Shown: positions 31,574 through 62,326 of the stretch, piece after piece | How the letters are laid out: each line of letters begins with the position of its first letter | Numbering within the stretch: the stretch's first letter is position 1 | DNA from: Asparagopsis taxiformis | Taxonomy: Eukaryota > Rhodophyta > Florideophyceae > Bonnemaisoniales > Bonnemaisoniaceae | Length of the DNA stretch: 64,000 nucleotides | NCBI GenBank assembly: GCA_030407315.1 | Contig: JALQPE010002845.1 | Coordinates: forward strand, 1-64,000 | Reading direction: 5' to 3' | Translations under genes and position numbers: made by a program | Notes under the pieces: generated by a model | Told to the model about the DNA's origin: nothing | Databases searched by the model: none | Seen by the model: only the letters and a program-made list of their open reading frames with translations

Positions 31574-31681
31574 CGCACGATTCGACTGAACAGCCAGTCG
31601 ATTGGCGTAGTAACCTCCTGTAGTAACAAAAATGAGATAAAAACTAGCGTTAGATTCAAGTGTTCTAGGTCGAGAGACCAA

Positions 31682-40595: not shown

Positions 40596-43290
40596 CTCTC
40601 GTCATATTAGGGAAGGGAGAGTGCTTGAGCTGAAGGAGAAGTTCTTTAGGGAAGGATTCACCTCCTCAATCTCCCGAATCCTTGCCTGCAAAATGCCCGT
40701 TCCTAGTGAAGGCAGCACAACCCCCACCCTTCAAACCTTTTACATCGATGGTGGCCATCGCGTTGCGGCTCTCCAGAAGTGCATTCGTGAAGACCCGGAA
40801 GGGCAACATCCGTATGCTGCTTCATTCAGGAACATCGATGTGGCTTTGATCAGGCGCCCAGGGACAGAAGAAGTTTCCGATGAGTACTTCACACCTTTTG
40901 AAGTACTCGGGCTGTCCATTCAAGCAAACACACTCACACATGATGTTGCCCTTGTTTCTTTGGCAGACCGAGTGTGTTCTGTGGTCCAACTGCTCACGAC
41001 CAAGGACATGCTGGGTGAACCGAATCGGAAGTGCATTCAGGTCATCATGGACAGCCAGTTGTCGATATCGAAACTGGGCTACCAAGCCATCAACAAGCAC
41101 GTGACTGCTGCGAAAGGCTTCCGGACTGTGAACAACAAAGCGCTTGAGTTCTGGAGTTCCGTACCGAGCATGTTCACCAAGGACATTCTCGCTGCGGAAC
41201 AGGAAAGGGCCGTTAAAGAAGGCCGTGACATCAACGACGATGTCTTCAAGCAGTCCGTAGACATGTATGGCTGCAACATGGATCTCGTTTTCATGGCAGA
41301 CTTCCGTCGCGGCTCGGAGTATCAGCAAAGGTTCATCTTGCTCATAACAGCTCTCTGGACACGCATGCGAGACCTGCGTCAGTTGAGTAGGACGACAAGA
41401 GGATTTGGTAATCCTTTCGTTCGTGTTTTGATTGAAGTGTTCAAGATGTCCGAGCCGGTTGCTGCTCACAAAATGATGGAGCCTCCGCTCGAACATTTCT
41501 ATTCTGAGCTCAAGAACACTGGGTCAGGAAAGGAGACTGTCATTGCGAACAGTATCGCTGAGACCCTCCTGCACTTCAATACCGACGAAAACAGCGGTAC
41601 AAAGCATGCTCTCGTCTCCGACGAAATGTATGAGCAACTTCGCTTTTCCACGGGCGTTGTGGACATGGAAGAAGACCAAAGGGTCATTGTTCATAATGAA
41701 CAGCCATCTGAAGATGCGCCGAAGCCATCTACGCCCCAATCAGATGAGCCTTCTACCCCTTCTACCCGTTCTGGTCCTACTCCTCCTGCCCCTTCTACCC
41801 CTCCTGCTCCTCGTGCTCATTCTACCCCTTCTACTCCTTCTACTCCTTCTACCCTTCTACCCCTTCTACTCCTGCTCCTACTACCCTCCTGCTCCTGCCG
41901 CTTCCGTTCCCGCCCCTTCCACCCCTCCTGCTACCCCTCCTGCTCCTGCCGCTTCCGTTCCCGCCTCTTCCACCCCTCCTGCTACCCCTCCTGCTCCTGC
42001 CACTTCCGTTCCTGCAGTTGAGCAGGCTCAAGGAACCCCTGATGCCACTGTGGCAGGTTCTGAGAAGCAATTCGGATCTGTTCTCCTCCGTCTCCCTCTC
42101 AATGCACCACCGCTTGCGGTGAATGAGCCAGTCGAGACACTTCGCAGGTCAAAACGGCAGAGAACGGAGAGTCTACGGGTTGGCGGCGACAGTCAGGCAG
42201 AGTGGGAGGTAGAAGAAGAGTCCGAAGAGCCCCTTCCGAAGCGCAGAAGACTCGAAGTGAAACTTTCAACGGAAGAGATTCCATTGTTCAGCGATGAGCA
42301 AGAAAATCCCCTCCCCGACAGGGTAGTCGATGAACGGATTATGGATATTCTCCCGAACACCATACCGTCAGACTCTAGGGTCAAGTACTATATCGACAGC
42401 AAGCTGTACGAAACAATCCGACAGGAGATTTTGAGTGCAGCTGCTGCCGATATGAACTGTATAGCGTGCAGTGGTCCAGCTTGCTGTGCAGAGAAGTTCT
42501 TTGCAACAGCTAGGTCAACTCTCAATCTCTTGGGTGCCCATGTACTCAGTGGTATCTTCCGTTCTTCGACTGTGGGCAACGCAGCACATGAACTGTTCAC
42601 GTTCTACGCCCAGAAGTTCAAACCTGTTCATTCTTCTGCTGAAGACAGTTCCAATGATCCCTGGCATCAGATTCGAAACAAGGGTGAGGTAACAGCAGAG
42701 CAACAGGCCTCTCGTTTGGGAAGGTTCTCTATCTCAAGGAAGAAGATTTGCGACGATCTCGAGCAGATGGATGAACATCAATTCAAGAACAAGATGATTC
42801 TCGAGGTCGGCAAAGCAATCTGTGCCGAGCTAATGTACTTGGGCCTAGGAATCCATGAGCCTGTGGCCTTTCTAAAACCGGTTTACGTCTTTTGCTGACC
42901 TCTGATGGTGCTCCAGATCAAGACTTGCACACAGACCTACCGGTGGTCATCAATGATTCCGATTTCCCACCTGGAAGATCGTACTTTCTGATGGCAAGCG
43001 CGGCTGATGGGTTCTGGCTTCGTGGAGCGTATTTCAGCCACGTCTGTTTGACGCGTGCAGACGCTGAGAAGTACAAGACGCCTGTTATGGACATCTACGT
43101 GCCACCGTATTCTCTCTTCATCGGTCGTGGTGACTTCTACCATGGAGGCAAAGGATTCAGTAGTTCAGCGGAAAATCGCCTAACGTATGGTCTTCCGGTT
43201 CGTTCTCATCTCTACCTTTTAAGTGACGAAGAAGAATTGGCGGATGCTATCGAAACAGTCAACTACTGGGATGCACCTAGTGCGCGATAA
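40596..43290 (+). pseudogene. ParB-like / 2OG-Fe(II) oxygenase fusion, paralog 1, 5' end cut off by LTR insertion
   Basis: The frame starts abruptly after the LTR. Its first residues SRHIREGRVLEL align with SRLVRPGRVNEL of paralog 2 (59200-62326), so the N-terminus was lost to the retroelement. Domains in order: a ParB/Srx-type domain with the signature DGGHRVAAL (near 40747), a conserved helical region (to about 41600), and a Pro/Ser/Thr-rich linker of near-tandem units (41740-42030). The C-terminal domain has HTD (42928-42936) and a distal His in GDFYHGGKGF (43141), followed by R..Y..P.R, the HxD...H...R layout of 2-oxoglutarate/Fe(II) dioxygenases. The frame slips once inside the Pro-rich repeats (near 41860) and once near 42870. 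The product would be a DNA-binding or CTP-binding ParB-like module tethered to an oxygenase; the substrate is unknown. Confidence 0.75.
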
Positions 43291-43622
43291 TCTGCAAGAA
43301 TACTGCTTTGCCTCTCCCTCTACAGGCAGCATCTGCCAATCCTAAGCTAGCTTCGGTAGTATACTTCCTTTACCACAACTAAATCTATCCTATTCATGAC
43401 TTTGAAAATATTAGCACGGTCAGTCTACTGCACTATTAGATTTCCTCTACCTCTCACCCCGCATAGCTTCTACACCCTACATCGTACAGACTGATCTCTT
43501 TTCCTTTCCTACATGCATGGCACAGTTTTGCAAGACTGCCACAATTCCACATCACTCGAGTAACCAAGGTCTTGAATTGTTCTTCTTAGTATACTAACTA
43601 TAGTTGAGATGCAAACCTGGCA

Positions 43623-43716
43623 GCCAATGGAATTGCTGCACCTGGGCTTTGCCATGCCAAAATAATACCGGGTATTATTTTGGCATGGCAAAGCCCAGGT
43701 GCAGCAATCCATTGGC
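43623..43716. repeat. 94-bp near-perfect palindrome
   Basis: Starts GCCAATGGA and ends with its complement. The arms meet at the centre AATAATACCGGGTATTATT, with one inserted base in the left arm. It looks like a minute inverted-repeat element. The 10-bp stretch immediately around the centre is shared with 49770-49790 and 49860-49880. Confidence 0.9.
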
Positions 43717-43735
43717 TACCGCTGCGTTCATGACA

Positions 43736-43831
43736 GCCAATGGCAGAGCTGCACTTGGGCTGGCCACACCCAAAATAATACAGGGTATTATTTTGGCATG
43801 GCAAAGCCCAGGTGCAGCACTATCATTGGGC
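43736..43831. repeat. Diverged second copy of the palindrome
   Basis: Same family as 43623-43716, but the left arm differs at several positions (GCACTTGGGCTGGCCACACC) while the right arm is nearly identical to that of the first copy. The arms therefore evolve unequally. Confidence 0.85.
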
Positions 43832-43978: not shown

Positions 43979-46900
43979 CTACTTCTCTGCAGTCCAGTAG
44001 CGCGATCCATAGTCAACGAATATCTCTTCCCCAGCTCGAACATCTACTATAACCTGCGCTAGGATGAGATCAGGTTTTGCTACTGCATACTTGAAGTCGA
44101 AAGTAGGATTGACGTCTTTGTGAACTCGGAACTCTGCATTTTTTCTGCGTTGCACATTTGCAACTCTCTCCATTCCGTCAATGGTCCTACTGTCGTTGAG
44201 GTAGCTGCAGACATTGTATTCCGCTGGTACAAGATATATCTTGTCGACCGGTGCTTCTTCTCCGATGACACTGGTATCCATCTCCATGTTGAAGTTTTGG
44301 AATCTTTCACCAGTACAACCGAACCCGTCCGGTCCGTACAAGCGACTGCGTTGCGGTTCATTCTCCCCAATCTTCCCGTATAAAATTGTCCCATTATACC
44401 ATCCAACAACAGAGCCCCTCTCTAAATCTTCTGCGGCAAAAACCCCCAATCCTCCCTCTCGAACTGTCGATGCAGCAACAATAACGTTGTGAAAGGAGGC
44501 ATCTACTGCAACCATCATCTCAGGGTCAACGGAGAAAACCTTGCCTAAATCTTCTACGCCCCATTCATTCATTGGGACTTCGGCAAGTCTTCGGAGCATG
44601 CTTTGATCCCGCGCAACAGAGGAGACAAATCGCAACATATGCAGTGGTAGTGAAGATACCGACGGGAATCCATCAGGCGCATCACTTCTATGTCGAAGTC
44701 TTTCACTTCCTACATTGCTCCTTATCGAGTAATTCCATTCTTTGTTAGCGAGAATACTCGATATGTCATTTTTGGTTGCCTCCCCAAAAACTCCATCTCG
44801 ACCTTGCCTAACAAAGCAATCCAGCAACAACGGCTGAGCTGATCCATGGCATGTGGCGTCTTTTTCACATCCAATAAACTTGCGATACAGACCATCTCTC
44901 ATTGTCATGCAAGCTATTGCAGTAGAATACGTTCCGGAGAATAGATCTACCACAATGTCTCCTGGCTTTGAAAACCTTGAAATAAGCTCTCGAAGTATGG
45001 ACAGAGGCTTCTGCTCCGCACGTAGCCTTTTGTCTTCGAAGTTCAATGACTCACCAGGTCCGAGCTTTGGGCAGTTGTCGATTGCGTTCACGTACCCTGG
45101 ATGTCGTGAAAGGTCACGGTTATGCAAAGAATAATCAACCATTTCAAACGCGGCAGCTCCCATCCCACGTTTGAAACTGTGCACAACAAACTCGTGAATG
45201 TTGTGTAATGAACACGATTTGTTCATTGGGTTTTGGATGAATACGTAGGGACGACGGCTTAGAATGAGAGGAACATCGTCTGTACGCATGGATTGTTCCC
45301 CGCTTTCTGCATTTTGAAGAGCTTCTCCCCACCCAACCAACTGTTTGATACTGGAAAATATCAGGGCATGTCCTCCAGGGCGCAGCATTCGAGAAATGTC
45401 CTTTCCAGTACGAAACATTTTTGCGCTATTGATGTCATCATACTCTGAATTGGTCTTGCCTTTCTCCCTCCGCGTGTTGAAGGGTGGATCGGTGAGCACA
45501 AGTTGTGCTTGTCCATCAATAGTATTCCTGAAAGCATGCCAATGGAATCAGTGTTAACCTGGTGCACTAACCTCGAGGCTGTACAGTTGTAAGCTACGCA
45601 AAATCTCTTCATGACCTTTTTCAATTGCACAATATGATCCGGTACCCCCTCTTCCTCACTCACTGCCTCCGCTGACGGTGTATCCTCCGCAACATCTTGC
45701 ATAACCGTGTCCATTGCGGACGAAGCCCTCCCATCCATGCTGGATGTATACTGGGATCCAGAGTCATTGGTAGGTTTCCTTCCACCTGTACCTAAACGGC
45801 GAGTGCTGTGCTGCATTGATTCATTCGACTCAAGACGATCTCTTTCTCGAGAAAGAGATCTGGATGCTGCGTTGCGCTGTTCAGTCTCGTAAAGAATTTT
45901 CAAGTCGCAGACATCAACTGGCTTCACACGCATTTCACGGTTCCAGTTCTTCCATACCTTGAGTCTTTCGTGACCATCCAATGCGATGGATTGTTCTATT
46001 CTTGCTTCGATGAAGGCGTTCAATCCGAACCGGTCAGGCTGATGGAAAAATTTAGTGCGCAGCCCTTCCATCTGGTTCGTACTTGATCCGAATACACCAA
46101 TGCCTATCATACAGTCATACACAGACACTAGTACGGCTTCTGTCAAAGACCTCAACCTTGCATCAACAGAGATATCCAAAGTGCCTGGATAACCTGCATT
46201 CTCGCGGAGTTTCACTACCGGGGACGGAAGCAGAAGATCTGAGTAGTGGTCAGGATGTGCCCACCCGTCAGTACGATTAGCAAGACAGATGAATTGGAAT
46301 TTCTCAGAGTCGAAAACCATGTATGGGCGACACATCATGTAGGCGCTTTCGAAGCCCAGAATCATCGCTGTTGTATCCCAGGCAGACATGACCCTTTCCA
46401 AAACGACACCCACAGACTCTCCGTTTGCTCTTGTGCGCTGGAAAGGGGCGAATGTAGAAGTCTCTGTATCCCTCCCAGTTCTACGACGCTTCCTACCCCG
46501 GCGAATGGGTGCATTTCTGCGTCTAGTGAGGGCAATGTGCACAAATGAAATCATAAACATCAGCCTTACAAATACTTTATCTTCTTCTGTTAATGTTCTA
46601 CCCTGTGCACTTCTTCCAGAACGGAAATACTCACAGGTGAGGACTTCGCGACACAATGGAGAAGCAATTTCACCACTTGTAGACATCCCAAACAGCTGCT
46701 CGCCGACTGATGCTCTTTTCTCGAGAGATGTGGGAAACTCCTTCATCGCAAAATTGTTCTGAACTTCCACCGGCCTTCCCCATACAATACAGAACAACTG
46801 CCACAGACAGCGAACCATTTTGGGATTGGGTTCTTCTATGCGACTGTAGGGGCGAAGCACACGAAGAATTGACAAGCAACTCTCGTACTGTGGCTGCCTC

Positions 46901-47478
46901 AGCACAGTTTCTGCCAAATCTTCGCGCTGAGATCCCACGGCGAGCCATCGCCTAATGGATGGCATATTCACGTCGCGAATTGTAACCATGCTTGAGCTTC
47001 CTTGTTTTTCACCTGCGTTTCGCTCCCAGTACCCATCTCTAAGATCCAAAGTAAGATTCAGGTACTCAATGGAAGTCATCCTCTTCTGCCTGGATGCCAT
47101 ATCGTTCGCGTTTGATGCTTTCACAAGGAAAGCAGCACTTGTAATCGAAGATATGTCGACTTCTTCTTCAATCATAGGAACAGTGAAATCACGCGGAAGC
47201 TCACCGTTCTCTATGAGCTTGATTACAGCTTTCGAACGATGCGCACCATCCAGCACCTCTACCTCACCGGCAATGATCCGACCGGTAATTGGGTTGTTGT
47301 CATTGTAGCCGTAAACCTGAATGCTCTCGGCAATAACATCGACGTGCCTGTAGTCGATTTCTCGAATCTCGACATATCTTTTGATCTTGAATGGGTCGAT
47401 GTGCAATAGCCCATTGCGCCGCTCACCATGAAGGGGACGCCGAGAGGTGCTCGCTGGATTTCTCTTCTCAGAGGCCAT
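43979..47478 (-). CDS. ParB-like / DNA amino-methyltransferase / SET-domain fusion (one 44-nt intron)
   Basis: The minus-strand exons 47478-45573 and 45528-43979 join in frame to about 1151 residues from ATG 47478. ParB/Srx-type domain at about residues 25-110, with LDGAHRSKAV near 76-85. A long helical middle follows, then a Ser/Glu-rich linker. The beta-class DNA N6-adenine/N4-cytosine methyltransferase has motif IV DPPF at 649-652 and, after it, motif X/I KPLSILREL..GDIVVDLFSGT near 815-835 (order IV before I, as in the beta class). A C-terminal SET domain spans about 980-1148: GGLGVFAAEDLERGSVV, then VCSYLNDS, NAEF and GEEIFVDYGSRYW. ParB-methyltransferase pairs are known in phages and bacterial mobile elements; adding a SET protein-lysine methyltransferase and an intron points to a eukaryotic gene. 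The NHSC-type SET motif is altered (LNDS). Target base and histone are unknown. Confidence 0.85.
45529..45572 (-). other. 44-nt spliceosomal intron (predicted)
   Basis: On the minus strand GTTAGT at the 5' border and TTTCAG at the 3' border, with ACTGAT/TTAAC as branch-point candidates. Length 44 is not a multiple of three. Removing it joins the ParB frame to the methyltransferase frame, giving ..QLVLTDPPF. Unspliced, each frame would end early. Confidence 0.85.
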
Positions 47479-48208
47479 CGAGAAATAGATTCTTCACCTC
47501 AATCAGTCACCAGCAGAAAACAATCTTCTCTCCTACCTGTCGTTAAAAACCTTCGGCAACAATTTGATAAACCTTAAATGCACAGTTAAAGAGTTAACCT
47601 GAATATTTTCAGGTATACTTTGGCTAGGTAGGGTACGTAATGAGGAATAATTAGGTTCTTCGGCGGCCTTTCAATACAATTATTTCGCCAACGGACATTT
47701 CCATTTTTGTTTTGAATTTGAAGTCCCCTCGAGAGATTGAGTTTGAAATCTGCCATCGGAGATTTCAAAACCAATCTCTTGAGAGGACTTCATGTTCTGT
47801 TCGAACTTGTAGACTCGTTCTTACAACCAGTATATAAATATACACATTGATTTCACTGCATCATTCTCGATCCCTGCGTCTCTTTATACATACACGTCTA
47901 GGTTCCGTTATATTGCCACAGCGAAAAATACACCCAATCTACTGGTAATGGCTTCGAGCAGCTCGGAATAAGATCTTTATTATATGGTGATGAATGTTCA
48001 AGAGAGATGATCATCACGATGTTGGTCTCCCATGTCGCTTGGGACAGGTGTTAGTAATTTATAACCGTTACGAGTTATGCAAGTATAAAAATAGTAACCT
48101 ACCAATTTTCTCTCTATCATTCCACACGGATACAAGCTGTACAGTTTCGTCATCTTTCCTGTTTCCTCAGTCGATACCTCTTCCATTCTTTTCCTGGGAA
48201 TACCCATT
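47479..48208. promoter_or_regulatory. Bidirectional intergenic region between divergent genes
   Basis: 730 bp between the start of the ParB-methyltransferase-SET gene (minus) and the Tudor-like gene (plus), so it should hold both promoters. It contains TATATAAATATA at about 47832 and an imperfect hairpin with 20-bp arms at 47720-47791 (GAAGTCCCCTCGAGAGATTG against its complement). No gene is seen. Confidence 0.45.
47720..47791. repeat. Imperfect inverted repeat in divergent promoter region
   Basis: Left arm 47720-47739 and right arm 47772-47791 are complementary with two mismatches. An inner arm pair GAAATCT..AGATTTC extends the hairpin. Confidence 0.7.
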
Positions 48209-49505
48209 ATGCAAGACCCAACAGACTTTGTCTCCGAAGGATCAGTCATTGAAGTAGAATGGAGTTTACAAACGAGAGGAAGGAAACAGAAAAAGGTTTG
48301 GTGGGGCGCCAAAGTTTTGAGTACTGCCAAGCCGGACGCGTCCGGAGAACATCGTTTGACTGGAAACTTGTTTGTTACGCTGCAATATCAATCTGAACAC
48401 GGTTTCGACCAGTCAGTCTCTACAGCAAAATTATTCAAGAACAATTCGCTGCTGGACATTGACTCTGGAAACATGCTACGTTGGAGGTTTGGAGAGCAAC
48501 TAGCACTAGAGCAGACGATCTCGTCTGCGGGTGAAGACAGTTTCCATAAAAAAGACTGCAAACAAAACTTGTTGAGTCGATCCAAGTCCGAGCCGCGCTT
48601 AGTTTGCGATGAGAGTCCTCCTGGTCCTAACATCAATGAGGACATATCCAAGCTGTTTCAAAAGGTATCCTACCTCGAAAGGCAGATTCTCAACTGTCGC
48701 GGTTCATCAAGCGCTACTGGACCCATCTTCGGAAACATTGTGTGCGACTACCTGTTCCAGAGAGTTGGCTTAAAACTGGACAAACCCCTGTCCTCCAAAA
48801 TCACGAAGTCTGAAACAGGCCGGGAAGTGAGCTCCTTGGTGCAAGACTATGTGACGGCAAGAGCAGATTGCTCGCTTGAACAGTTTTTACAACTTTCCAG
48901 GCTATGCGAAAAGAAGAACAACCCAAACACAATTTTCCTGCCGAGCGTCGAGGCGGTTCGAATTTCAACTGGGAGAGATAAAGAGCTATCGATCCACTTT
49001 GGAACATACTATGACCTCTGCAATACTTTAGCTCCTTCCATGTCTACATGCACGAACTCACTATCCTCAAGTGGAAGAAAACACGACACGATTCTGGGTC
49101 TTCTGTCATTAGAGTTTTGGGAACTCTAGCAGACAGTGCTTCAGAAGATTTTATTCCATCTACAAAGGCTGTTCTTGTTGGTTCCTCTTTATACAGGAGA
49201 TCTGAAAACATGAGTAGTACTGTCGTTCTTACTCGAGAATCTGATGAATACGACTATGTCAATTGCAGCTATTCGTATCCTTTGGAAGCTCGCTTCCTCT
49301 CAAGTCGAGAAAATGCAGGAGAACTTTGAGCTGCCGGACAGCAAAAATTTCAATTGGCCAACTCGTTCTCACTGACCTGGAAACCTGTTCAAGGCCTCGT
49401 CCATATGGAACTTTCGAGCGCGTTCTCAAGAATGTTGTGTTGGGAACTGCATACTTGAACCTCCCAGCATGCATTTCAGTGGACACACCATCTGCAGCGA
49501 GCTAG
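48209..49505 (+). CDS. Hypothetical protein with possible Tudor/Agenet-like N-terminus, frame broken at the 3' side
   Basis: The main frame is 48209-49129 (306 residues, ATG start). The first 80 residues read IEVEWSL..VWWGAKVL..GNLFVTLQYQSEHGF. This pattern (acidic-hydrophobic strand, W-W-x-A-K-V, then a strand with Y and an HGF turn) resembles Tudor-like or PWWP-type chromatin readers, but I cannot assign a family firmly. The rest is helical with a coiled-coil-like stretch (KLFQKVSYLERQILN). After about 49030 the likely coding sense moves to the frame 49048-49329 and perhaps on to 49505, so an intron or frameshift is missing from my model. Divergent from the ParB-methyltransferase-SET gene, so perhaps co-regulated with it. 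Confidence 0.5.
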
Positions 49506-50199
49506 ACACAATTGGACATGACGTTATCGTTGGACAGAATAGTTCCCCTGTCGATGCACCTCATCCTACCGTACACGATGTCGCCTCCGAGTAAAACGTT
49601 TTCTATCTTTTCTAGATGGGTCTACAAGACTGTTCAGATTTAGTCAACCTCGATTAAGTCGATGGTATCCATCGATACATGCTCCGTATCTTTCTGGCCT
49701 GTTCCTTCGTCCAGGGACTGTCTGCATTCTGTAACAATGATTGCCCTCCACTTGGCAAAATATCCCTGAAAATAATACCGGGTATTATTCTTAGGTTTCG
49801 TCCAGGGATCGCCTGTAGTCGGTACGAATGATTGCCCTCCACTTGGCAAAATATTCCTCAAAATAATACCCGGTATTATTTTCCGCACTACTCTGCCAGG
49901 TGGAGCTACGGCATTGGATGGGACTGCACAGGCCCCGAAGCTACTAGAGGCGTGCTCAATGACAGGGTAAAACTCTTAACCGTAGTAGACATGACGCTTT
50001 CTAGTCGCAGAGTGAGCTGAAAAATAAGAACGATAGCTATTGTTTCCAGTACACCATGTAGTACGTAGCATGCTGCGGTGCACCTTTTCCACGCACACCT
50101 AGACAGTTTCACATCTAAAGGTTTTTATTTCTCTTAAGTCTCTCGTACGTAGTCGGTTCCCTTCAAAGGCTATGAAACTTTACTTCTACGCTTCCATTA
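49506..50199. repeat. Intergenic region with duplicated segment carrying the AATAATACC.GGTATTATT core
   Basis: Segments at 49736-49789 and 49826-49880 are direct repeats (AATGATTGCCCTCCACTTGG ... AAAATAATACC(C/G)GGTATTATT). The palindromic core equals the centre of the palindromes at 43.6-43.8 kb. No gene is seen otherwise. Confidence 0.7.
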
Positions 50200-51690
50200 T
50201 CAATCTTCCTCATCAAGGAAAACTTCAACGTAGCTTTCACTCCCATCTTCTTCATTTCCATGTCCGCTATCCTCCTCAAACGCGGTACTACGCTGTTCCA
50301 AGTGTTGTTCATCGAATTTTTCGTTAGTAATTGTCAGTACATCTTCGCAGAGATGCCTCTTACAGATTCGGTCACTCGGCAACATCGCCTTTCCTAATTG
50401 TTTGAGCTCGTCTTGTACACTTTCTTCGAAGGTCTGACCTGATTGTACCTTGAAAATTCCTAGAATCCCGGAAGCGATTGCATAGACAAATCTGAGTGAA
50501 TTGCAGGAACGTCGCAGGAAACCATTCTACTCGTGCATTGAAGGAAAGCAATTGCAGTGTTCAGGGCTACCTCCAGGATATTGATTCTCCTTCGAATCAT
50601 CCTTTTGGCCACACATCCCGATATCTCGACTTCGTACTGAATGATGACAACCATCTCTTTCCGCTCAGCGATGAATTGTATCAAGATCTCGGAATTCTTG
50701 TCATCCACAACTTTCCGTTCCTCAGGCCTTAGATTTCCGTTGGTCACACGGGTATCGGGGATAACATCCATATCTCGAATGAGATCGTGAGTTGGAAACT
50801 CGAAAGTGATAGAGGCGTCCGTTTCCACAGACTAGAGCGAACCCCAGTTCGACAAGGAATCGATGGCGCACCTGCTCTCTAGACTTGTTCAGGAAACCGA
50901 GCACCTTTGTCAGCACAACTTTCGTAACAGCCAAAGATATTTCACGCTTGCTCAACTGTCCACCATTTCCATCTGTTTTCCTCTGCTTCCTAGCCCTCCG
51001 TCAATGCTTCCTGCAGGCTGGTTTCGGCCATCGCCAGTGGCACCATAAACAAACTCTTCGATTATTTTGTCCGGAATGTACTTGTTCTCCTCCAGACGTT
51101 GAACGCATTCGAATCGCGTCCAGAGCTCGAGCTTCCACTGTACGCCTGTACCCGACTTTTCCTTCTGAATGTTCCGCAGGAGAGACATCACCACTTGGAA
51201 TCGAAGCTCGATGTTTTCTTCCCGGTGTTGGATGGAACACATCCCTCTTGTCATTGCTCTGCTTCGCAAACATCATTGCAGAGAGCAACCTGCAACCACG
51301 GAGGTCGTAGATTCCTTGGTTGGTGTAAATTGTCGCCCAGCATCCACTGTCACCAGCAAAGGTACAACTTCGTCCAAATCTGCACACAGAAAATTGTAGA
51401 AAACGATAGTTCTGCTGACTGCGAGATGCGCAAACGGTCCCTGTCCTTGTCAGTCATCCCTTTCTTCGAATTTGCCCTGCTCTGCTGTAATAACAATCAA
51501 AGATGTCTTTCATACCCTTAATTCCGTTCGATAACTCGACGCGACTCATCGCTTTTCGATTTGCTGGCGTTTGGGGACGTTCGTCATCGTCGATTTCATC
51601 CATCCTCTCCCCAATACGACGAACTTCCCAGTCACTTGTCCTGAATCCCTCTCGATATTCCCTGCTAGCAGTCATTTGGATTTTCCTCAC
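50200..51690 (-). pseudogene. Unrecognised minus-strand gene, frames alternating
   Basis: Minus-strand frames follow one another in two alternating phases: 51690-51454, 51387 to about 51240, 51269-50952, 50955-50722, 50828-50460 and 50385-50200. Several encode plausible protein, e.g. VQWKLELWTRFECVQRLEEN, LSKREISLAVTKVVLTKVLG and an acidic C-terminus ending VEVFLDEED. I do not recognise the family. At least four frame changes are needed. Either there are short introns I could not define (the confirmed local intron is only 44 nt) or the gene is decayed. Confidence 0.4.
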
Positions 51691-51973
51691 GACGCTGAGA
51701 TTCCTCTTCCGTCAAACTTGCGCCTCTCGGTTCCAATCGCCAAGTTCACTCCAGACGATTTTCCTGCAACGAGAATGCTAGCAATATTAAAATAATGCCA
51801 ACTACTCTACTCATATCCTCGTAAAACACCGATTTTCTCCTACCTTTTTTGTAACGGTCATTTCATGTACCTGCATCCTCTAGCACTTCTCACTACTAGT
51901 AACTTCAGAATAGTTTCCTCTCTTCTCTAACTTGAACTCACATGGCGACACATGTTTACAACCCTAAAATCCT

Positions 51974-52292
51974 GGACACACTACGGTTTGTGAAAGGGGG
52001 CCTCAGACAGTATAGCGAGACGTGTTTGCACTGTCTGCAGACAGTACGGAACCTGTCTGCAGACAGTAAAAACCTGTCTCCAGTACTGTCTGAGGCAGTG
52101 AATGGAGACAGTAAAAATTAATGATTTATTCAATGTTGGATAGCAGTTAATTTACTGCCCTGGGCAGCACTGGAGACAGTATTTTGTGCTGGCCCTGGCA
52201 CATGGCCGGATAGTGAATTACCTGCCTGGGCAGCACCTGGAACACACGTGCTGCCCTGGGCAGCACCTGGAGACAGTAAAAGTAGTGTCCTG
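51974..52292. repeat. Cluster of short palindromes, possible miniature element
   Basis: CTGTCTGCAGACAG (twice) and GCTGCCCTGGGCAGC-type palindromes recur, interspersed with GGAGACAGTA. The ends are weakly alike in inverted orientation (GGACACACTAC at the left, AGTAGTGTCC at the right), as in a miniature inverted-repeat element. The ends are not certain. Confidence 0.5.
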
Positions 52293-52978
52293 ATATAGTA
52301 AAATTCGGTGTCTGGGAGTGGTGGATGAGATGGAGCGTCACGCTGTCGTGGGCATCTTTCTGGGGTAGAGGAAGGCAGTTCTAGCGCTATGAGGATGGGG
52401 CATGGACGGTATTCATATGGGAATGGACAGAATAGTACGGCTAGGAATTTTTATTTCGTAGTGACTATGAGCTAGCGAGAGGTATACGCGGTAGGATAGG
52501 TAGCAATCTAAGAGGGTGCGATATGGGAAGCTTCACTCTGGATTTGTTTATTTGCGCAGGCTACATTGAGAATAAACAATCCCTATGTTAAAAATGCTAC
52601 TACAACTAACACTATTCCGACGAGTAAAACTAAAACTACTAGAAAAGTCTAGAAATCTATCAACTGATTGAGCTGCATGAATAAGCTAGGAAATGAAGAG
52701 AAGAAGAAAAAATGATGTAGAGAAAGGAAACAAGTTAGTGACGTTGAATTGGAGAGGGAAATTGATGGTGATTAGGAGACTAACGTACCTTAACAAATAC
52801 CATTGCATCCCAAATTGAGATATGTACTCACAGGCAGAAAAGAAATTAGTGGAGAAGTGGTAAGAGAGAAAGATAAATGAAAGTAGAAGTGGAACACTCA
52901 CCGACTGGAAACCTGAGAAAGAGAAAACGAATAGAAAACTGGGTTAGTGGCGTGAGTTGTGGAAACGTACCATCATGG

Positions 52979-53119: not shown

Positions 53120-54076
53120 GATGGAAACAGGGATCTCCAGAATCTGTTGTTTAAGTAGCACTCTGCGGGCGGAAATGACGTGTAGGAGAACAATAGAGGG
53201 ATGAATTTGAAACGGAGCGGTGCGATGGGAGGCCCAGAAAAACGATACCTAGGGTGCGAATTACGCTTTGAAGCACATGACCTGGCAGAACAGGCGCAAA
53301 ATTATTGTATCTTCTACCGCCTTCTCTAGTCTATAATGACGTCATCACTACAGAAATATAGGAAAAACACTAGCATATGGGGCCTACTGGAAAGGGGGGC
53401 GAGGAGTAGGAAAAATGGCGCACTTTCCTGGACGAGGAGTCCGCGCTTCCAGTGATGATTTGGACGGTATATATCGATGACGTCATTGCATGCTCTGAGC
53501 ACACTTGGCAGGCAGTCAAAGCGGGCCACGTGGATGTGGGCGGCTAGGAAACAGCAGTGTGGGAGAAATTTTATAATTTTCATGTTGCAAGCGAGCAGTG
53601 AATCTGCATTGCAATATATAAATTTATGCTAATTTAAGATATCACACCGAGTACGATTCAACGAGAGATTGTGCTTTCAACTTGTAAATAGGGCCGAAAA
53701 TGGTAGAGTATACGAGTAGGAAGTACGTGTATGAGAAAATCAGATTCAGTATTAGTGCCTAGAGCATCACTGCGAAATAAACGGCCGTTTTCCGGAAATG
53801 GATACATCTTGGCTGGGTTTGTGGTTAGGGGATGCGATACAAGATAGCAAAACGATGTTGAGTCCGGATGAAATAGCAATCAATGTGCATAAAGCAATGA
53901 GCATAGGGCAAAGCATTGTGGTGAACCAGTTCATTGGATCGAATGAAAGCCTGGAAAGGTTTCGTAACGGTTAAAAGTAGTAGTACTGTATTGAGATAGT
54001 AGTCATGTCATAGAAGTTTAGAGTTGTATTCTATGCAACAAAACTGAGCGAAGAAGAAAAGAACAAAAACATCAAG

Positions 54077-57000
54077 ATGGCTCCGAGACGGACTCCTATT
54101 CGAAAGAAAACCACAAGTCGTAGGACAAAGGCGAGATTCGATTCACTCAATGTGGCCAGTCCCAGTAAACAGCTTCCTGGGAAACTGCAGGGAGAAATCC
54201 GCAGCAGTGATGCAGCCTGCATGAACAAAGAAATCCCGAGAGGTAATGAGCTACGACGTGAGTGTACCACAGATGACCTATTGGAGTCCCCAATCCCTAT
54301 GGGTGACACAATAGAAGGTTGTATTGATGTGTACAGCAACAACGATGAAGCTGGAAGTGACATCTACGTAGCATCGAGCACGCTAATGGAATCGGAAGAA
54401 GCAACCGGACGAGGTTCTGATTCCATTTCAACTGGAGGCCCGATAGACCGAAATGCTGGGGATGAAGCATGTGGTGATTTCAAGGCATTACTACAATGGC
54501 CTGCGATGTATGGGGCTCTTCAGCTGAGTGGAACTCAAAGAATGACAAGAGCCCACTATGAAGGTACCCTGTTCGGAATGAATTTCCGCAGAGATCCAAG
54601 TGAGCACGTCCCGTCGGACTCTGTGATGCGACAGAAGATACTACCATTCTTGAGGAAACACTGCTATGCAAAGAGCTGTGACATCGAGTTTCCGATAGAC
54701 CTTCGAAAGAGCGGAGCAAGAGCTGCACAGCATCGAGGTGCAGTAGGAACCCGTGGAACAACAGATGACAGAGACAATTGTGGAGGAATGGCGAAAGTTC
54801 GTATTGTACTCCCAAGCACATGGGCTCTGAAAGATGTCCAGACTCGACCAATCTTTAAAGCATTCCGCAGTGATGCGAACAATCGAAGCTCGGAAGGAGA
54901 AAAATCAACCGCAGAGTGCAGCATTGAAGATTCGTTCATTGCAAAGTGCAGGAGGGGTGTTTTGAGCGACCCATTCGTTCGCACAGCAGTTGTTCCCATT
55001 GACAGCGATGGGAAAAAGGGTTTGAAGCACATTTATGTACCTGATGGAACAGCAATTCGAATCCGATGTCATCCAGGAGCTCGTCAGGTTGCCGTCATCG
55101 AAAGAGCAAAAGGGTTCAGGAAGAATGACAGAGATGGTGGGAAACCGAAGAGGAGAAGAGTGGCGGTTACGTCGTTGTGGGAACTTCATGCTAGGACCAT
55201 AGTTACCTATGAGGCTCGACACGACGGTGAGCATGATGTGCATGTCGAAAAATATCTGCAGCCGCGAATGTCACATCTATTGGAATGGGAGAGGCAGCAT
55301 GCTCTGCGAGCGATATCGCAATGTGTAATCGGAGCAGGAGCCAAGGGAAAAGGAACACGAGCTGGGGACGTGATAACCGTTCTATTACCAATTGGAATGG
55401 AAGAGGGTGATATTGTTCCACACGTCGTATTGGTGAACAGGTATTTGAAAGAGCAGGTCGGAGAAGCATCCACCATGTTACTTTGCTTTTCACCGGGCGC
55501 GAGCTTTGCTGAAGCCAGAAACCCGCCCGATAGACTAGGAAGCCCCAACTATGAAGAAATTCGTGTTTCAGGGGTGTTCTCGGATGGTTTCGGAGACCAC
55601 AGGTCGCAATGGCACCCAGCGTCTCCGCGAGAAGATGCACCATGTTGGGGAAAGCTGGAGGATGGTCGAAACTACTTTGTTTACCGATTTCTCCTTTACA
55701 CGGATGACTTTGAACCATTCACAAGCAGGAAGGGAAGTTTTGGTGGATGCTATATGTTACCTCTCAATCTACCGCCTCGGAAAAGGGGAAGCTACCAAGC
55801 GGTTCGAGTGATTGGTTTGCCACCTCCGGGAGTGTCCACAAATTGTGTATTGCGATATATCGTTCAAGATATAGTGCGAGGAAGCACAGAGGGTTTCCCA
55901 ACGAAAAATGCAGAGGGAGAAGATGTTGTGGTATTTCTAGACCCAGTGGGGAGCATTGGAGACTATCCTGCAGTTTCACATACCCTGGATGTTCTTGGAC
56001 ACACATCAAACTCTCCGTGCCACATCTGCAGTTTCCGCAAATATGACCTGAGCAGTACTGGTGGCACGAAGAATGCATACACTTCGGTAGTGAACGGGCA
56101 AACATCGACGCATGCCAGGAGCAAGTATCGGAATGCATCGACACGTAAGGATGCCACAGAAACCCAGCTTCGCACTCTCGGACTGGCTGCAGAAGAAGGG
56201 GAAGATTTACCATTTCATGTCCTGAGCACTTCCTTGGAAGCAGTGCAGGAAGAAGTACCGAAGACGGAAAACGGAGTTTCAGTTGTCCCAGCAATTTTTG
56301 ACCCGTACCGTTCCGCAGTGATAGCACCTGACCATCTATTGTCTGGACTGGCACAAGATGTACTGAACGCTTGTATTTCAGCTGCCAGCCCACGAATTCG
56401 AGAGGTAGCTGAATTGCAAATTCTGGGCGCTCTGAAGAAGTTCAGGATGGGAAGGCAGAACCGTTTATTTGGAACCAACAATCTGCTTTCCATGAACATG
56501 AGTGACATATTCAGTGTGCTGCTGATAGCACCTATGGCATTCGAAAACGCAGCTCGAATGATGGATGGGAAAGGGGAAGGTCATCGTGAAAAATTTGATG
56601 GGGCCGTCAAACTAGTAGTGATGTTTCAGAAGCTGGTTTCGTGTATTAGTTTCATGCCCGTATGGTGGAAAGACGGTCCCCATGAAGTAGAGACGGCTGA
56701 CGGAGAAGGTGGCAGGAATGAATACATTCTGGGAAGAACTGTAGACTACGTGGAGACGTTGAATGAGTATTGTCGGAAAGTGAAGGGAGCAGGAGCACAT
56801 TTGGACAAGCCTAATGTTCATCGTCTTGTCGAGTTTTGTGTTCATACGCTTCCTGCCTACGGCTCTGTGAAGCACGTGCAGGAGCTTATATTCGAACGGA
56901 TGCATCAGCCGCTGAAGAAAGGTGTGAGAATGTCCAATCACCAAAGCGAACAGCTTTCAGCGCTGGAATTAGTTCTTGCGGATGACTGGCAGACGAGAGT

Positions 57001-57538
57001 GGCCATTGTTTTGCGCGAAATCGGCATGGAGCCACAACATTGGTCCTCGTCCGAATGCTCTCAAATGGTCAACGTTCTTTCACAGGAGCTAGGGAGAGAA
57101 ATAGATGTGGAAGACGAGGTAGTGAAAAACTGCTTCCAGGAACCGGTTCTCCAGCTTCTCTCCCAGCGTCGAGGAAAGATATTGTCGGCGGATGGTGAAA
57201 TTGTGACGTGGAGAGGGCATGGAGGTATATCTATTGACGAGGTCAAGGAGTACATGAATGGAAAATGTGATATGGCAGAGGGTGCTGTAGGTGTTTTCAA
57301 ACGGTTCTTTACCGAAAGGTACGGAAGCGGAACAAGCGGGTGTGGAAAGTATGCCGAATGGGTGAGAAGAGTTTCTAGAAGCACTACGACAGAGTGGGGA
57401 AGGAAAACAGTGCAGAGGTCTGGCTCTCTAGAATCAGGAGCTATCATCCATGCTGTTTGCCCTGAACAGATGAATGTGAGGATGGTGCAACTTCACAAGC
57501 GATTCTGTACCCGGCGTCTCGTCTCACATCAGAGATAA
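54077..57538 (+). CDS. DDE-type transposase-like protein, probably CMC (CACTA/Plavaka-like)
   Basis: 1153 residues uninterrupted from ATG 54077. The N-terminus is basic (nuclear-localisation type). In the middle, LLYTDDFEPFTSRKGSFGGCYM leads to LPPRK..AVRVIGLPPPGV, and then to VVFLDPVGSIGDYPA followed by PCHIC (C-x2-C). The succession of an acidic D-containing strand, a turn with P-V/Y-M and L-N/L-P-P, R-x5-A and G-x-P, then D-Y-P, L-G and C-x2-C resembles Plavaka and Transposase_21 proteins of the CACTA superfamily. I infer the catalytic Asp residues lie in these two blocks. A second decayed copy lies at 1-2030. No terminal inverted repeats or CACTA ends are seen. It lies beside the palindrome arrays and the ParB-oxygenase gene, and may mobilise that neighbourhood. 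Confidence 0.6.
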   Translation: MAPRRTPIRKKTTSRRTKARFDSLNVASPSKQLPGKLQGEIRSSDAACMNKEIPRGNELRRECTTDDLLESPIPMGDTIEGCIDVYSNNDEAGSDIYVASSTLMESEEATGRGSDSISTGGPIDRNAGDEACGDFKALLQWPAMYGALQLSGTQRMTRAHYEGTLFGMNFRRDPSEHVPSDSVMRQKILPFLRKHCYAKSCDIEFPIDLRKSGARAAQHRGAVGTRGTTDDRDNCGGMAKVRIVLPSTWALKDVQTRPIFKAFRSDANNRSSEGEKSTAECSIEDSFIAKCRRGVLSDPFVRTAVVPIDSDGKKGLKHIYVPDGTAIRIRCHPGARQVAVIERAKGFRKNDRDGGKPKRRRVAVTSLWELHARTIVTYEARHDGEHDVHVEKYLQPRMSHLLEWERQHALRAISQCVIGAGAKGKGTRAGDVITVLLPIGMEEGDIVPHVVLVNRYLKEQVGEASTMLLCFSPGASFAEARNPPDRLGSPNYEEIRVSGVFSDGFGDHRSQWHPASPREDAPCWGKLEDGRNYFVYRFLLYTDDFEPFTSRKGSFGGCYMLPLNLPPRKRGSYQAVRVIGLPPPGVSTNCVLRYIVQDIVRGSTEGFPTKNAEGEDVVVFLDPVGSIGDYPAVSHTLDVLGHTSNSPCHICSFRKYDLSSTGGTKNAYTSVVNGQTSTHARSKYRNASTRKDATETQLRTLGLAAEEGEDLPFHVLSTSLEAVQEEVPKTENGVSVVPAIFDPYRSAVIAPDHLLSGLAQDVLNACISAASPRIREVAELQILGALKKFRMGRQNRLFGTNNLLSMNMSDIFSVLLIAPMAFENAARMMDGKGEGHREKFDGAVKLVVMFQKLVSCISFMPVWWKDGPHEVETADGEGGRNEYILGRTVDYVETLNEYCRKVKGAGAHLDKPNVHRLVEFCVHTLPAYGSVKHVQELIFERMHQPLKKGVRMSNHQSEQLSALELVLADDWQTRVAIVLREIGMEPQHWSSSECSQMVNVLSQELGREIDVEDEVVKNCFQEPVLQLLSQRRGKILSADGEIVTWRGHGGISIDEVKEYMNGKCDMAEGAVGVFKRFFTERYGSGTSGCGKYAEWVRRVSRSTTTEWGRKTVQRSGSLESGAIIHAVCPEQMNVRMVQLHKRFCTRRLVSHQR

Positions 57539-57879: not shown

Positions 57880-59199
57880 TTTTTAGGGAAGAATAAAATG
57901 AATAACCAGATGCATCACATATGAATTGTACACTCTAGGGCGTGGTGGATTGGTGCAAAGTAGTGGGGAGAGGATCTGAGAGGATGGAGGGAGGTATGCT
58001 TACAGCAAAGTCATCGTTACGATGACTTTGCTGTAAGAAAACGTTTCCATTACAGTGGCCAAGAATTTTTACCGGGTAAAAAAATCGTGGCAGCTGTAAT
58101 GATTTGCTTTCTTACAGCAAAGTCATCGTAACGATGACTTTGCTGTAAGGAACCGTTTCCTTGCAGTGGCCGAAGAATTTTTTACCGGGTAAAAAATCAG
58201 CAAGAAATTTTACCGGGTAAAAAATTGTGGCCGCTGTAATGATTTGCTGTAAGAAAAACGTTTCATTACAGCGGCCACAATTTTTTACCCGGTAAAGAAA
58301 TCATGGCTGCTGTAATGTTTTCTTTTCTTACAGCAAAGTCATCGTAACGATGACTTTGCTGTAAGAAAACGTTTCATTACAGCAAATTCATCGATAGTTA
58401 AGGTTAAGTAACCAACTTTAGGATGTCCAGAGGACCTGCTCGTTGTAAGGAAAGGAATATTGATCAACTGACGAAGAGGAAGCATTTTGAATCGACTAGG
58501 GTAGGAACGCAATGAGATTTGGTATGCAAGAAAACTGAATCGCAGTAGTGAATAGGTAGTTGAAATGAATTCATATTGATGTTCTTTGGTGTATTGTCCA
58601 TTGGAGCACATTGAAAACCATTTATATGATCACCGTTTAAATAGTCTATGAATCCTTTGCAGCCGAGTACGCCAATAGGAAGAAATTCAAGCAGTGGCCT
58701 GCACGGGAACCGTTTATTTGTGAGTAGCAAAAGTTAGTGTAGAAATGAATTTTTCAGACTTGTAGGAGAGGTGGATCGTAGTAAATGTATAAAACTCACG
58801 TAGAATCGATTGATAGGAATCAATGGTACGGAAGAAGAAGCGAGGTGGAGAGTGTGGATGAAATAGGTTGTTGGAATATGAATGATAATTGACGTGGTGA
58901 GGTAAACGGGTTCGATTGCATTATATGCGCTAGAGGTACATACTATTAGGTGTAGATTGATGGAAAGGGCTAAACGCTTTGTGGAGGTATCAGGATCAGG
59001 TAGAGTCAGAGGTGCTGAGCGGGTGCAGCGTAAGGTTCATCAGGACTGAAGGTAGGTAGGAATGTCTTGTCCGGACAGTATATGAGAGGAAGCTGAGAGA
59101 CGGGAAGCGCACTCGGAGGTACCACAATTGTGGATTTCATCGTCTACACAACATTTGAACAGAGAACCGATTGAACGAACTGAGATTGCAGGGATTACA
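57880..59199. other. Intergenic region with palindrome array, no gene
   Basis: The first part (57999-58390) is the palindrome array listed separately. From 58400 to 59199 I see no gene. The last 100 bases form the 5' leader of the ParB-oxygenase paralog 2. Confidence 0.5.
57999..58365. repeat. Array of 39-bp palindromes and TTTTACCGGGTAAAA palindromes (array 1)
   Basis: Three copies of a perfect 39-bp palindrome with half-site CTTACAGCAAAGTCATCGT at 57999-58037, 58111-58149 and 58327-58365. Between them, TTTTACC(C/G)GGTAAAA palindromes alternate with CATTACAGNGGCC text in both orientations. The central base of the 39-mer is T in the first copy and A in the others. Confidence 0.95.
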
Positions 59200-62100
59200 A
59201 TGGGAGACAATAGTATCATGAATACTACAGCGGAGAAGAGCAATTCTCCTTCTGCTGAAGAGAAAAGCATCACTATTGCTCAGTACAGCTCTTCTAAAGT
59301 GCAAGTTGATCCTCGCAAAGTGAAATTTCCGACAGTGACCTCCCGTTTGGTGCGACCGGGTCGTGTAAACGAACTGGCCAGCATTTTCATGGATAGAGGT
59401 TTCTCTACCACTGGAACTATGATTACAGTCTGCAAAATGGAAGATAACGAAGGAGACGAGTTTTACTGCATCGATGGCTCTCATCGCATAGCTGCTCTGC
59501 AACTATGCCTGGAGAAGTACTCAGGAAAGAACAGGGATTCCTTGGAATTGGTTTGGGTACAACAGTTGATTGCGCCGAACGGGCGTCTAATTTTCGATGC
59601 GCTGGAGGTTCTGAAACTGTCTCTCGAAGCCAATATACAAACTCACGATGTCGCTTCTGTGAGCATTGCCGACAATGTCTGTGCGGTCATAGAGTTTCTC
59701 AGGTTTTCCAACCAGATGGATCTTCCTGTTGTCCGGCTTATTCCTATTCTGAAAGAAGTGAGCTATATTCTGCCGTCCGACAGGAACCGTTCGGAGAACT
59801 CGTATAGGCAGTACATCAACATTGCGAAGGGGTTCAATCGCACAGACAGCGTTGCTTTCGTGTACTGGAGCTCTATCCCTAGCGTTTACAATGCTTTGGA
59901 TAGGAACAGAGAAATCGAGGATGCAAGAACCGAGGGAAGAGATCCGGACTTTTCTCGAATTGACTCTGCCGATATGTACGGGTGCGTGCTCGATCTTGTC
60001 AATAACGCAATATTCCGCAATGGCACGGACGGACGCGGGACGCGCGATAAGGAGTGGTTCCAGTGGTTGTGCTCGAGATGACAGCGTCGTGGACAAGGAT
60101 GAGGAGGAAGAGAGGACTTGTCAGAAATATCGGAAGCGGAAGTCCGTTCACGATGCGCACTTGGCTACTGGCTCTGTTGGCCATCTATGATATGGCAGAG
60201 GTCGTCCGCAAGTGGTTGAACTTGAACTCTGCAACGATGGAGGAATTCGTGCGAACGGATTTGGCAGCAGAAAACGCGAAGGAGGTCGGGGATAATGATC
60301 ATCGCATTGGAGAGCGCATTGTATTCGTCCTTGTCGACTTTCATGACGACGTGGTAGACAGTAGCAGTCTGAGAACCAAGAACGGGATGTTTACAAACAG
60401 TTTTTACGACAAACTGGAATATGCTACCGGGACAAAGGCAATGCAGGAGACGAAAGCGGAGGAGGAGAGGGAACGGAATCGCATGACCCCCGGAGAAATA
60501 GAAAAAGCACTTGTTGATGGCGCCAAAGCAGAAGACGAAGAAGCACCTACTGCCGCAGAACAGGGAAATAATTCTACAGAGAAGGAAACTGTGGAAACTT
60601 CTGGTCCTGTTCAAGCAGAAGAAGGAGTATCTGCCGAAGCCCAAGTAGAGCAGGAAGTTTCTGCTGTTGTGGAGGAAGAACAGGAAATTACTCCAAATGT
60701 GGTGGCTGAAGAAGTGATTCCTGCTGTCGCGACGAAAGCAATAGAAGAGGCACCTCTGAGCACCCCGAAAGAAGCAGAAGACCGTCCTGCCGCAGCAAAA
60801 GAGGGAGGACAGGAACGTCCTGCCACGCGTCTTGCAGCAGCTGAGAAGAGGGAAGCAGAACGTCTTGCTGTTCTCCAAAAAGAACAGGAACGTCTTTCAG
60901 CTTCAAGGGCAGAGCGGGAAAGTCGTGCCAGGGATAATTCGCCGGGAAGGATTGTCAGAGAAGATCTTCCTCAGGGAAGGAAACAAAGCGGCGATACGCA
61001 AAGTCTGGATATCAACTTGGACAATAGTGGTCGCATGGACATAGACACGCCTGGACAACAAGCTGGAGATGCGCAGAACCGCTCTGTGATATTGAAACTT
61101 CGAATCAGGACACCAGAAACTTACAGCACTAGCCCGGCCGAAGTGGACAAGGAGAATTCGGGAAGAAGCAGGAGTTCTGGTGGAAGCGGCGATGAAAACG
61201 AGTCCAGGTTGGATAAGAAGCGAAGAAGGGAAGATACTAGCGCGAAGTTTTCTGAGCCCAATACGCCGGATGACAACATTGAGATTGGGCCTCCCCGGGA
61301 AAAGAAGAGTAGAGTCAATGCAAGAAACGAACGACTGGAGAAGAAGCACCACTCTTCACTGACGAGCAAGAAAACTCCCTTCCAGACCGCACATTCGCAG
61401 AGGACATACCTGAGAAGCTGCCTTTATGCGTTCCTTCCAACTCGAGAATGAAGTATTATATCACAGAAGAAGACATTGATACAATCCGGACGGAGATAAT
61501 GGAAGCAGCTGCAGGCTACTCTACTTTGGTATGTCCCCTCGGTTCTTGTGAAAGCCAACAATACTTCAGCTACCAGAGAAGAATGATCGACGAGCTTGGT
61601 TACGTGGTGTTGCAAGACATTTTCTCTTCTACTACAGTGGGAGCAGCTACGCACGAGTTATTCACACAGATGGCCAGCACATTCCAAGGTACTACAAGTG
61701 GCTCAAGTGCAAGTCAGAAGAACCCGTGGAAACCACTTCGACCGAAAGACAGCACTGGTGTATTCAAGACGGACCGGAAAAGCATCTGCGATGACCTTGA
61801 GCAAGAAAGCGCGCGGCAGTACAGGAACAAGCTGATTCTGGAGCTAGGTAAGGCGATTTGTGCGGAGAACCTGAAGCTCGGGTTTGGAAGAGAAGAAGCG
61901 GTGGTCTTTCCAGAAACGGGTCTTCGTCTGATTTTGACCGCAGAAGGTAGTCAGGAGCAACTTATGCATACCGATGTTCCCGTCCGTGAGGGAACTGGAA
62001 CTGGTCCTCTCAACTCGCCATCATATTTCATGATGGCTGCTGGTGCGGATGGGTTCATCATTCGTATCGCCAAGTTCAGCCATGTGTGCCTAAGTCATCC

Positions 62101-62326
62101 AGCGAAAGACAAGTACCGCGTGCCAGTGACGAACGTGCGCATCCCACCGTATTCCCTGCTTGTATGCCGAACGGACGTGTATCACGGAGGAATGGGATTC
62201 GCGGAGGGTCGTTCTTCGGTGAGGTACCAGCATCCTATCCGGTCCCATCTATCACTGCGAACTTCCAGGGAGAAGTTGCTACAGCCTCCCTTCAATGTCA
62301 ACTACTGGGAGCGTTTAGATATCTGA
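59200..62326 (+). pseudogene. ParB-like / 2OG-Fe(II) oxygenase fusion, paralog 2, with two apparent frameshifts
   Basis: Starts at ATG 59200 (MGDNSIMN). Domains: ParB/Srx-like with IDGSHRIAAL (about 59465-59495) and the conserved helical region ALEVLKLSLEANIQTHDVASVS (59597-59660); an Ala/Glu/Gln-rich linker (60450-61010) in place of the Pro-rich linker of paralog 1; a basic stretch; and a C-terminal oxygenase domain with HTD (61967-61975), the distal His in VYHGGMGF (62183-62185) and R..YQHPIRSHL. The reading frame shifts by one near 60055 and again near 61340, judged by alignment with paralog 1, where the same stretches are open in one frame. Real decay, assembly indels or unrecognised introns could explain this. 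It ends NVNYWERLDI, like paralog 1 (NYWDAPSAR). Confidence 0.75.

Follow-up and report, generated by a model that had tools for sequence, protein, structure and literature searches.

The gene at positions 43,979 to 47,478 of the Asparagopsis taxiformis stretch analyzed here (64,000 nt of contig JALQPE010002845.1, hereafter the window) is, as judged by sequence comparison, part of a giant EnSpm/CACTA-like transposon of this red alga, and its predicted product joins a ParB-like region, a DNA amino-methyltransferase domain and a SET domain in one protein. We observed the gene within a repeated mobile element, in linkage with other parts of that element and with conserved domains. From these features we infer a dual marking of DNA and chromatin that would be directed toward the element itself. 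We therefore favor, at a probability of roughly 55%, an accessory protein by which the transposon marks its own DNA and chromatin.

In the window, the gene appears as two minus-strand open reading frames (ORFs) in different frames, one running from 47478 and a second ending at 43979, both present where an earlier note on this DNA had placed them. That note, made from the letters alone, had proposed a methyltransferase and a SET domain and suggested profile searches for both, which bore it out: the downstream half of the gene scores 55 bits with PF01555 (Pfam cut-off 26.7) and 25.9 bits with PF00856 (cut-off 22.4), the two domains being separated by 399 nt. The DPPF, DLFSGT and GEEIFVDYG motifs it had named are all found in the window gene and kept in its relatives. 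Thus, DPPF/Y precedes D-x-F-x-G-T in six of six homologues, placing motif IV ahead of the S-adenosylmethionine-binding motif I in the beta-class order, and the catalytic tyrosine of the SET motif E-E-x-x-x-D-Y-G is aligned in all six. NCBIfam added only matches below cut-off, mostly to adenine-specific methyltransferases.

The relatives derive from a protein search that returned six sequences; a second search with A1 returned P0003 alone. P0003 is so close to the 16 copies of equal length in this genome (2-8 residues different) that it was dropped as an independent relative, leaving five. These retain the architecture and the key residues at 26-44% identity. PF01555 exceeds its cut-off in all five (six of six counting P0003) and SET in four (five of six counting P0003), with P0007 falling below (20.6 bits, E 6e-4). 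Regarding the N-terminus, a DGAHR motif lies in the first half of the window gene, and PHROG 1033 ('ParB-like partition protein') matches residues 38-131 of P0003 (E 6.2e-5) as well as P0004 (E 0.003). P0005 and P0008, the other two of the four proteins scanned with PHROG, gave no ParB-like match, P0008 being devoid of that region. In the alignment, P0004-P0006 have the ParB-like region, whereas P0007 and P0008 start later and lack it. A PDB profile search with the ParB-like part yielded nothing useful. We designate the N-terminus as ParB-like with moderate confidence.

To define the genomic context, the downstream half of the gene was searched against the window's own 141-Mb assembly. At least 84 scored copies were obtained from 3415 first-look candidates, almost unchanged among each other. 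Twenty copies were fetched with flanks; compared with the 9.9-kb copy L022, the other 19 match over 7.7-9.9 kb at ≥90% identity, coverage being lowest in L023, where a long array of repeats takes up space, and in L019, where the first 1.1 kb are missing. The repeat is therefore longer than 9.9 kb, and two copies with more flank have >17 kb in common. On contig C1754, the left end of the element became apparent: its terminus CACTACCGAGTTTGAGGTTA (CACTAC...) interrupts the transposase gene of another element, an insertion seen from one side only. The terminus is followed by GGCAGT/ACTGCC subterminal repeats, a 509-aa frame and, on the other strand, a 499-aa frame. Next come the ParB-like/methyltransferase/SET gene and a tandem array of palindromic 114-bp units, then, again on the other strand, frames of 1019 and 1184 aa separated by another array. 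Rightmost are a 104-bp array, a 1233-aa transposase-like gene and once more subterminal repeats, the distance from the left end to the latter amounting to ~24-25 kb.

This arrangement recurs throughout the assembly. The left-end 20-mer has 56 matches (≤2 mismatches), 28 per strand, compared with zero for the reversed control, and in 25 of the 32 terminus-gene pairs on the same contig the terminus lies upstream on the same strand, 6890-6920 bp from the second half of the gene. Nineteen gene-transposase pairs were found on 17 contigs. Seventeen of these pairs have their genes on opposite strands, with a spacing of 10.5-15.8 kb in 16 cases and of 28.6 kb in one; the remaining two pairs share a strand and are >30 kb apart. 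The transposase itself was detected in at least 38 scored places of 2105 candidates, all of them in full-length open frames. Twelve aligned transposase-like proteins share invariant D, D and E columns and mostly keep C(2)C, with no clear H(3-4)H; the one protein compared with Pfam gave no match. P0005 of the methyltransferase family and P0012 of the transposase family each come from a 17,553-bp contig in another source, probably the same one. The mobile element suspected in the note is thereby demonstrated by terminus, linkage and copy number, and the gene it had treated as a lone one is instead one among several of a repeated giant transposon. A single-copy host gene is ruled out by copy number and terminus distance. 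As a side observation, C464 carries two gene copies in opposite orientation, at 13635 (-) and 29666 (+), and C1778 two transposase copies, at 105634 (-) and 126051 (+).

The frame change within the window copy had been interpreted as a 44-nt intron, which would make the locus a single host gene of two exons. A GT..AG stretch is indeed present, one base off the 45529-45572 given for it (Table 1), and its excision rejoins both frames of the window copy. In contrast, an open frame of 1174 aa runs through the supposed intron in 58 of the 84 scored copies of the same genome, and the 20 copies fetched with flanks, read unspliced, give 1169 aa in 16 cases and 1166 aa in L017, three being broken elsewhere. 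L017 is a near-twin of the window copy, with 17 mismatches over 9.9 kb. On protein level, P0004 is one residue shorter across the supposed intron and the other four relatives also have protein there. These open frames and the protein in the relatives rule out the intron; together with a gene repeated at least 84 times, they render the two-exon host gene hardly credible. In a tblastn search, P0003 aligned with the window in two adjacent blocks in different frames. Given this result and the intact frame of the copies, the window copy carries a frame break. It may stem from decay or assembly error: 14 one-base gaps separate the window from L017, of which 11 are bases missing in the window and nine lie in homopolymers.

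Extension of the searches toward other methyltransferase and SET loci indicated that the window family is one of several. A 24-mer from the transposase gene of a second, adjacent element family has 438 matches (≤2 mismatches) assembly-wide, and the 100 listed of these share 26 contigs with 150 scored PF01555 places. Of the 33 resulting pairs, 18 (on 17 contigs) share one relative arrangement with a spacing of 11.6-14.3 kb, a distance at which the three control arrangements yielded no pair; the other 15 misfit. From 2605 candidates, at least 150 PF01555 matches were scored, and 101 of these lie within open frames of ≥900 aa. Since the 84 places of the window family are absent from these 150, the two sets together imply at least 234 methyltransferase loci. 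SET likewise gave at least 150 scored matches (of 1661), and the places of the window family are absent here as well: ten score 50-101 bits, which we take for ordinary host genes, and after a gap 140 weak ones follow at 33-36 bits. A third family combines PF01555 and SET on one strand, 401-402 bp apart; it accounts for eight of the 30 pairs on the 24 contigs common to the PF01555 and SET matches listed.

A number of observations weigh against a functional self-marking protein of this transposon. Pfam ParB_N (PF02195), which the note had proposed for the N-terminus, matched none of four N-termini at an E limit of 10, noting that the HMMER filters discard most matches above E ~0.1 despite this limit; of its ParB claim, the GAHR motif and the PHROG match in P0003 and P0004 are what stands. 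A profile match to phage ParB-methyltransferases was poor (probability 0.7%). Beta-class amino-methyltransferases carry F-x-G-x-G as the textbook motif I, and SET domains NHS. All six homologues have F-x-G-T-Y/F without the full motif I, and ND.R instead of NHS. The incomplete motif I lowers the claim of methyltransferase activity, not of Pfam membership, and as a consequence of both conserved departures catalysis is unproven. Concerning the element, seven of the 32 terminus-gene pairs misfit the spacing, and 25 of the 56 terminus matches are on contigs without a scored gene copy. An exact search for the right junction returned zero; the right end lies beyond the fetched stretch, and no target-site duplication was found. 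Finally, 17 intact copies vary nearly neutrally, with four synonymous and 15 nonsynonymous variant codons (ratio 1.09). Such a pattern would be expected after a recent burst and neither proves nor excludes function.

Part of this evidence would also suit passive or dying cargo, i.e., a gene captured long ago whose proteins are by now inactive or irrelevant to the element. Near-neutral variation and atypical catalytic motifs point in this direction, as do the 26 of 84 scored copies whose open frame is other than 1174 aa, even if some are still whole, e.g., L017 with 1171. We nevertheless consider it unlikely, because the architecture and key residues have been kept in five relatives at 26-44% identity, a second element family is similarly arranged, and the 58 copies mentioned above are fully open.

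Viral or bacterial DNA in the assembly was weighed as a further explanation, the combination of ParB and an N6_N4 methyltransferase being a phage and bacterial pairing. In the fusions L001 and L007, as in the window family, a ParB N-terminal part and a methyltransferase C-terminal part form one protein; in L007 both domains exceed the Pfam cut-off and in L001 ParB is just below. Unlike the algal protein, they comprise ~440 aa with no space for the middle region and SET, and the profile similarity of the ParB parts is weak. Scans of IMG/VR, phages and prokaryote genomes, of limited sensitivity, with twelve loci found in IMG/VR and the prokaryotes and ORFs examined in three (L001, L007 and L008), gave no match or none past query residue 907, before SET. 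A viral or phage origin of the whole protein was thus rejected, matches reaching at most the methyltransferase part. In addition, the copies are spread over many contigs of an assembly with phycobilisome genes, and gypsy elements with chromodomains lie in the same window, as does a gene for an oxysterol-binding protein, making foreign DNA a very improbable source. Phycobilisome matches exceeded the cut-off in 13 of 13 candidates, 11 of them on contig C469, which suggests a red alga as host, or in any case one possessing phycobilisomes. Two of the C469 matches, at 33273 and 210443, have equal scores; they may reflect a true duplication or a circular plastid contig whose ends overlap.

The coordinates of the gene, its domains and its neighbors are compiled in Table 1.

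Table 1. Features of the transposon gene, its companions and the adjacent element in the window.
Feature	Position	Strand	Remark
ParB-like / DNA methyltransferase / SET gene	43979..47478	-	giant EnSpm/CACTA-like transposon; window copy frame-broken
ParB-like region with DGAHR motif	47086..47367 (approximate)	-	transferred from P0003 residues 38-131
N6_N4 amino-methyltransferase domain	44852..45505	-	PF01555 E 1.4e-14; beta-class motif order
SET domain	44006..44452	-	PF00856 E 1.4e-5; ND.R in place of usual NHS
Stretch of 44 nt proposed as an intron, coding where copies are intact and in relatives	45528..45571	-	comparison with copies and relatives
Palindromic tandem repeat, about two units of 114 bp, core TAATACC(C/G)GGTATTA	43621..43829
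Companion gene, GGHRVAAL ParB-like motif, C-terminal HxD...H	40596..43290	+	frame-broken; 1019-aa open frame in C1754
Companion gene, family unassigned	48090..49585 (approximate)	+	broken in window
Companion, remnant of 509-aa frame by left end	50200..51710 (approximate)	-	comparison with copies
Subterminal GGCAGT/ACTGCC-type repeats toward left end	52001..52500		window
Transposase-like gene, second adjacent element family	54014..57538	+
ParB-like and HxD...H gene of second element, overlapping frames	59086..62326	+

Similarity of the window to other transposon copies ends at 40596, beside a GC-rich stretch. The companion broken at 48090..49585 is a single 499-aa open frame in C1754, C107, L017 and L022. 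The companion proteins, among them the 1019-aa and 1184-aa frames with G-G-H-R, share a ParB-like G-[GS]-H-R motif, a conserved center and a C-terminal invariant H-x-D...H and R-S-H. Proteins with HxD...H were located twice in the window (Table 1) and at L041:101-3157 and L038:2926-6477. By this motif alone, they are putative 2-oxoglutarate- and Fe(II)-dependent (2OG-Fe(II)) dioxygenases; they had no Pfam match, and a PDB profile search with the C-terminal domain gave nothing useful. Profile comparison of the companions with the N-terminus of the methyltransferase proteins resulted in E 3e-4 at a probability of 39.5%, and the companion proteins were without match in IMG/VR. The unit number of the 114-bp palindromic repeat varies between copies, reaching 8.8 in L024. 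Its core occurs 18 times in C1754, in three intergenic places beyond gene 3' ends, and the 104-bp array adjoining the transposase gene is without an exact core. Elsewhere in the window, two Ty3/gypsy-type retroelements with C-terminal chromodomains (24795-31681 and 32040-34979) were found, along with a fragment of an oxysterol-binding protein (22305-23108, E 3.7e-59) and an ORF whose weak match to Sel1 repeats stays below cut-off (20726-21808), the latter two probably belonging to host genes.

Within the self-marking interpretation, the transposon would encode this protein in order to mark its own DNA and chromatin. Binding to the DNA of the element would occur through the ParB-like part, the target-recognition region of the methyltransferase or both, with the palindromic arrays next to its genes as the obvious candidate site. 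Adenine or cytosine amino groups might then be methylated there by the methyltransferase, while the SET domain would methylate a nearby chromatin protein. Rather than silencing the element, such marks would more likely preserve its readability or protect it against silencing by the host, although this direction is a guess. An extended version would comprise a full epigenetic kit: a ParB protein finding the arrays in a parS-like manner, a bacterial-type DNA mark and a histone mark set together, the HxD...H companions as a counterweight and candidate dioxygenase erasers, and a private writer with private sites for each family, hundreds per genome. This version we hold to be doubtful.

Methylation could alternatively time or license the transposition of the element, with SET acting on the transposase or the chromatin of the ends. 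A precedent is the control of Tn10/IS10 transposition by Dam methylation. Linkage of the gene to a transposase-like gene and a terminus is consistent with this role, and so is the high density of palindromic subterminal repeats, both close to the left end and toward the transposase. The SET domain is not explained by transposition control alone, and we give this alternative little weight.

Comparison with known systems, here based on the accessible portions of the cited sources, relates the self-marking protein to several precedents. A publication of 2025 described ParB-methyltransferase proteins in giant transposons of algae (PMC12477816), and by its fusion, giant transposon and opposite-strand transposase the window family fits these proteins as defined there. 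The protein of Sola1-1_Ec32, a 21.5-kb Ectocarpus transposon, is similar in size (~1100 aa), combines a ParB-like part with an N4C/N6A DNA methyltransferase and is encoded by a giant DNA transposon opposite to the transposase strand; its authors propose self-modification. Compared by description, it differs in that the accessible text names no SET domain, in the superfamily (Sola-1, not EnSpm-like) and in the host, a brown alga (PMC12477816). Giant EnSpm/CACTA elements of Chondrus, likened here via citing papers only, share the red algal host, the CACTA-type terminus and many ORFs (4-5), at a length of 16-20 kb (PMC6431247) versus ~24-25 kb between the left end and the right subterminal repeats here; giant EnSpm elements of red algae (Bostrychia) are also cited in PMC12477816.

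Single parts of the architecture have counterparts elsewhere. The bdelloid N4CMT likewise couples a bacterial-type PF01555 methyltransferase with a eukaryotic chromatin domain, and it deposits 4mC at transposons that are active as well as at some tandem repeats. It differs in carrying a chromodomain, a reader, rather than SET, a writer, or ParB; moreover, it is a gene of rotifers, which the accessible text does not describe as part of a transposon (PMC8885841). SET histone methyltransferases are transposon cargo in HarbingerS and oomycete MuDR, members of other superfamilies for which the accessible text names SET alone, with no DNA methyltransferase or ParB fusion; the same source covers fungal transposons with TET/JBP dioxygenases, interpreted as anti-silencing (PMC12730594). 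For the alga Nannochloropsis, an enrichment of 6mA in EnSpm-type transposons and its association with active transcription have been described, although the authors also suggest that 6mA may inhibit transposon-carrying genes (PMC10943562). Concerning novelty, the note knew of no described protein with this architecture. ParB-methyltransferases of algal transposons have been described (PMC12477816), but searches of open-licence papers showed no report of a ParB-methyltransferase-SET fusion, of the HxD...H companions or of such a copy number.

For A. taxiformis itself, the published L6 assembly contains 33.48% DNA transposons, and according to the legend of Figure 4C in the same source, the contig of the bromoform (mbb) cluster also bears DNA methyltransferase genes labeled 'site-specific' and 'adenine-specific' (PMC12115072). 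These may be genes of such transposons, and red-algal methyltransferase genes in general may turn out as transposon genes, a warning for annotation. If the protein is active, a single polypeptide could place marks on DNA and on chromatin at one and the same site, its carrier being a selfish element of which a red alga harbors a very high number of copies. This would offer a natural test of whether transposons protect themselves by epigenetic marks and would bear on how bacterial-type DNA methylation enters eukaryotic chromatin.

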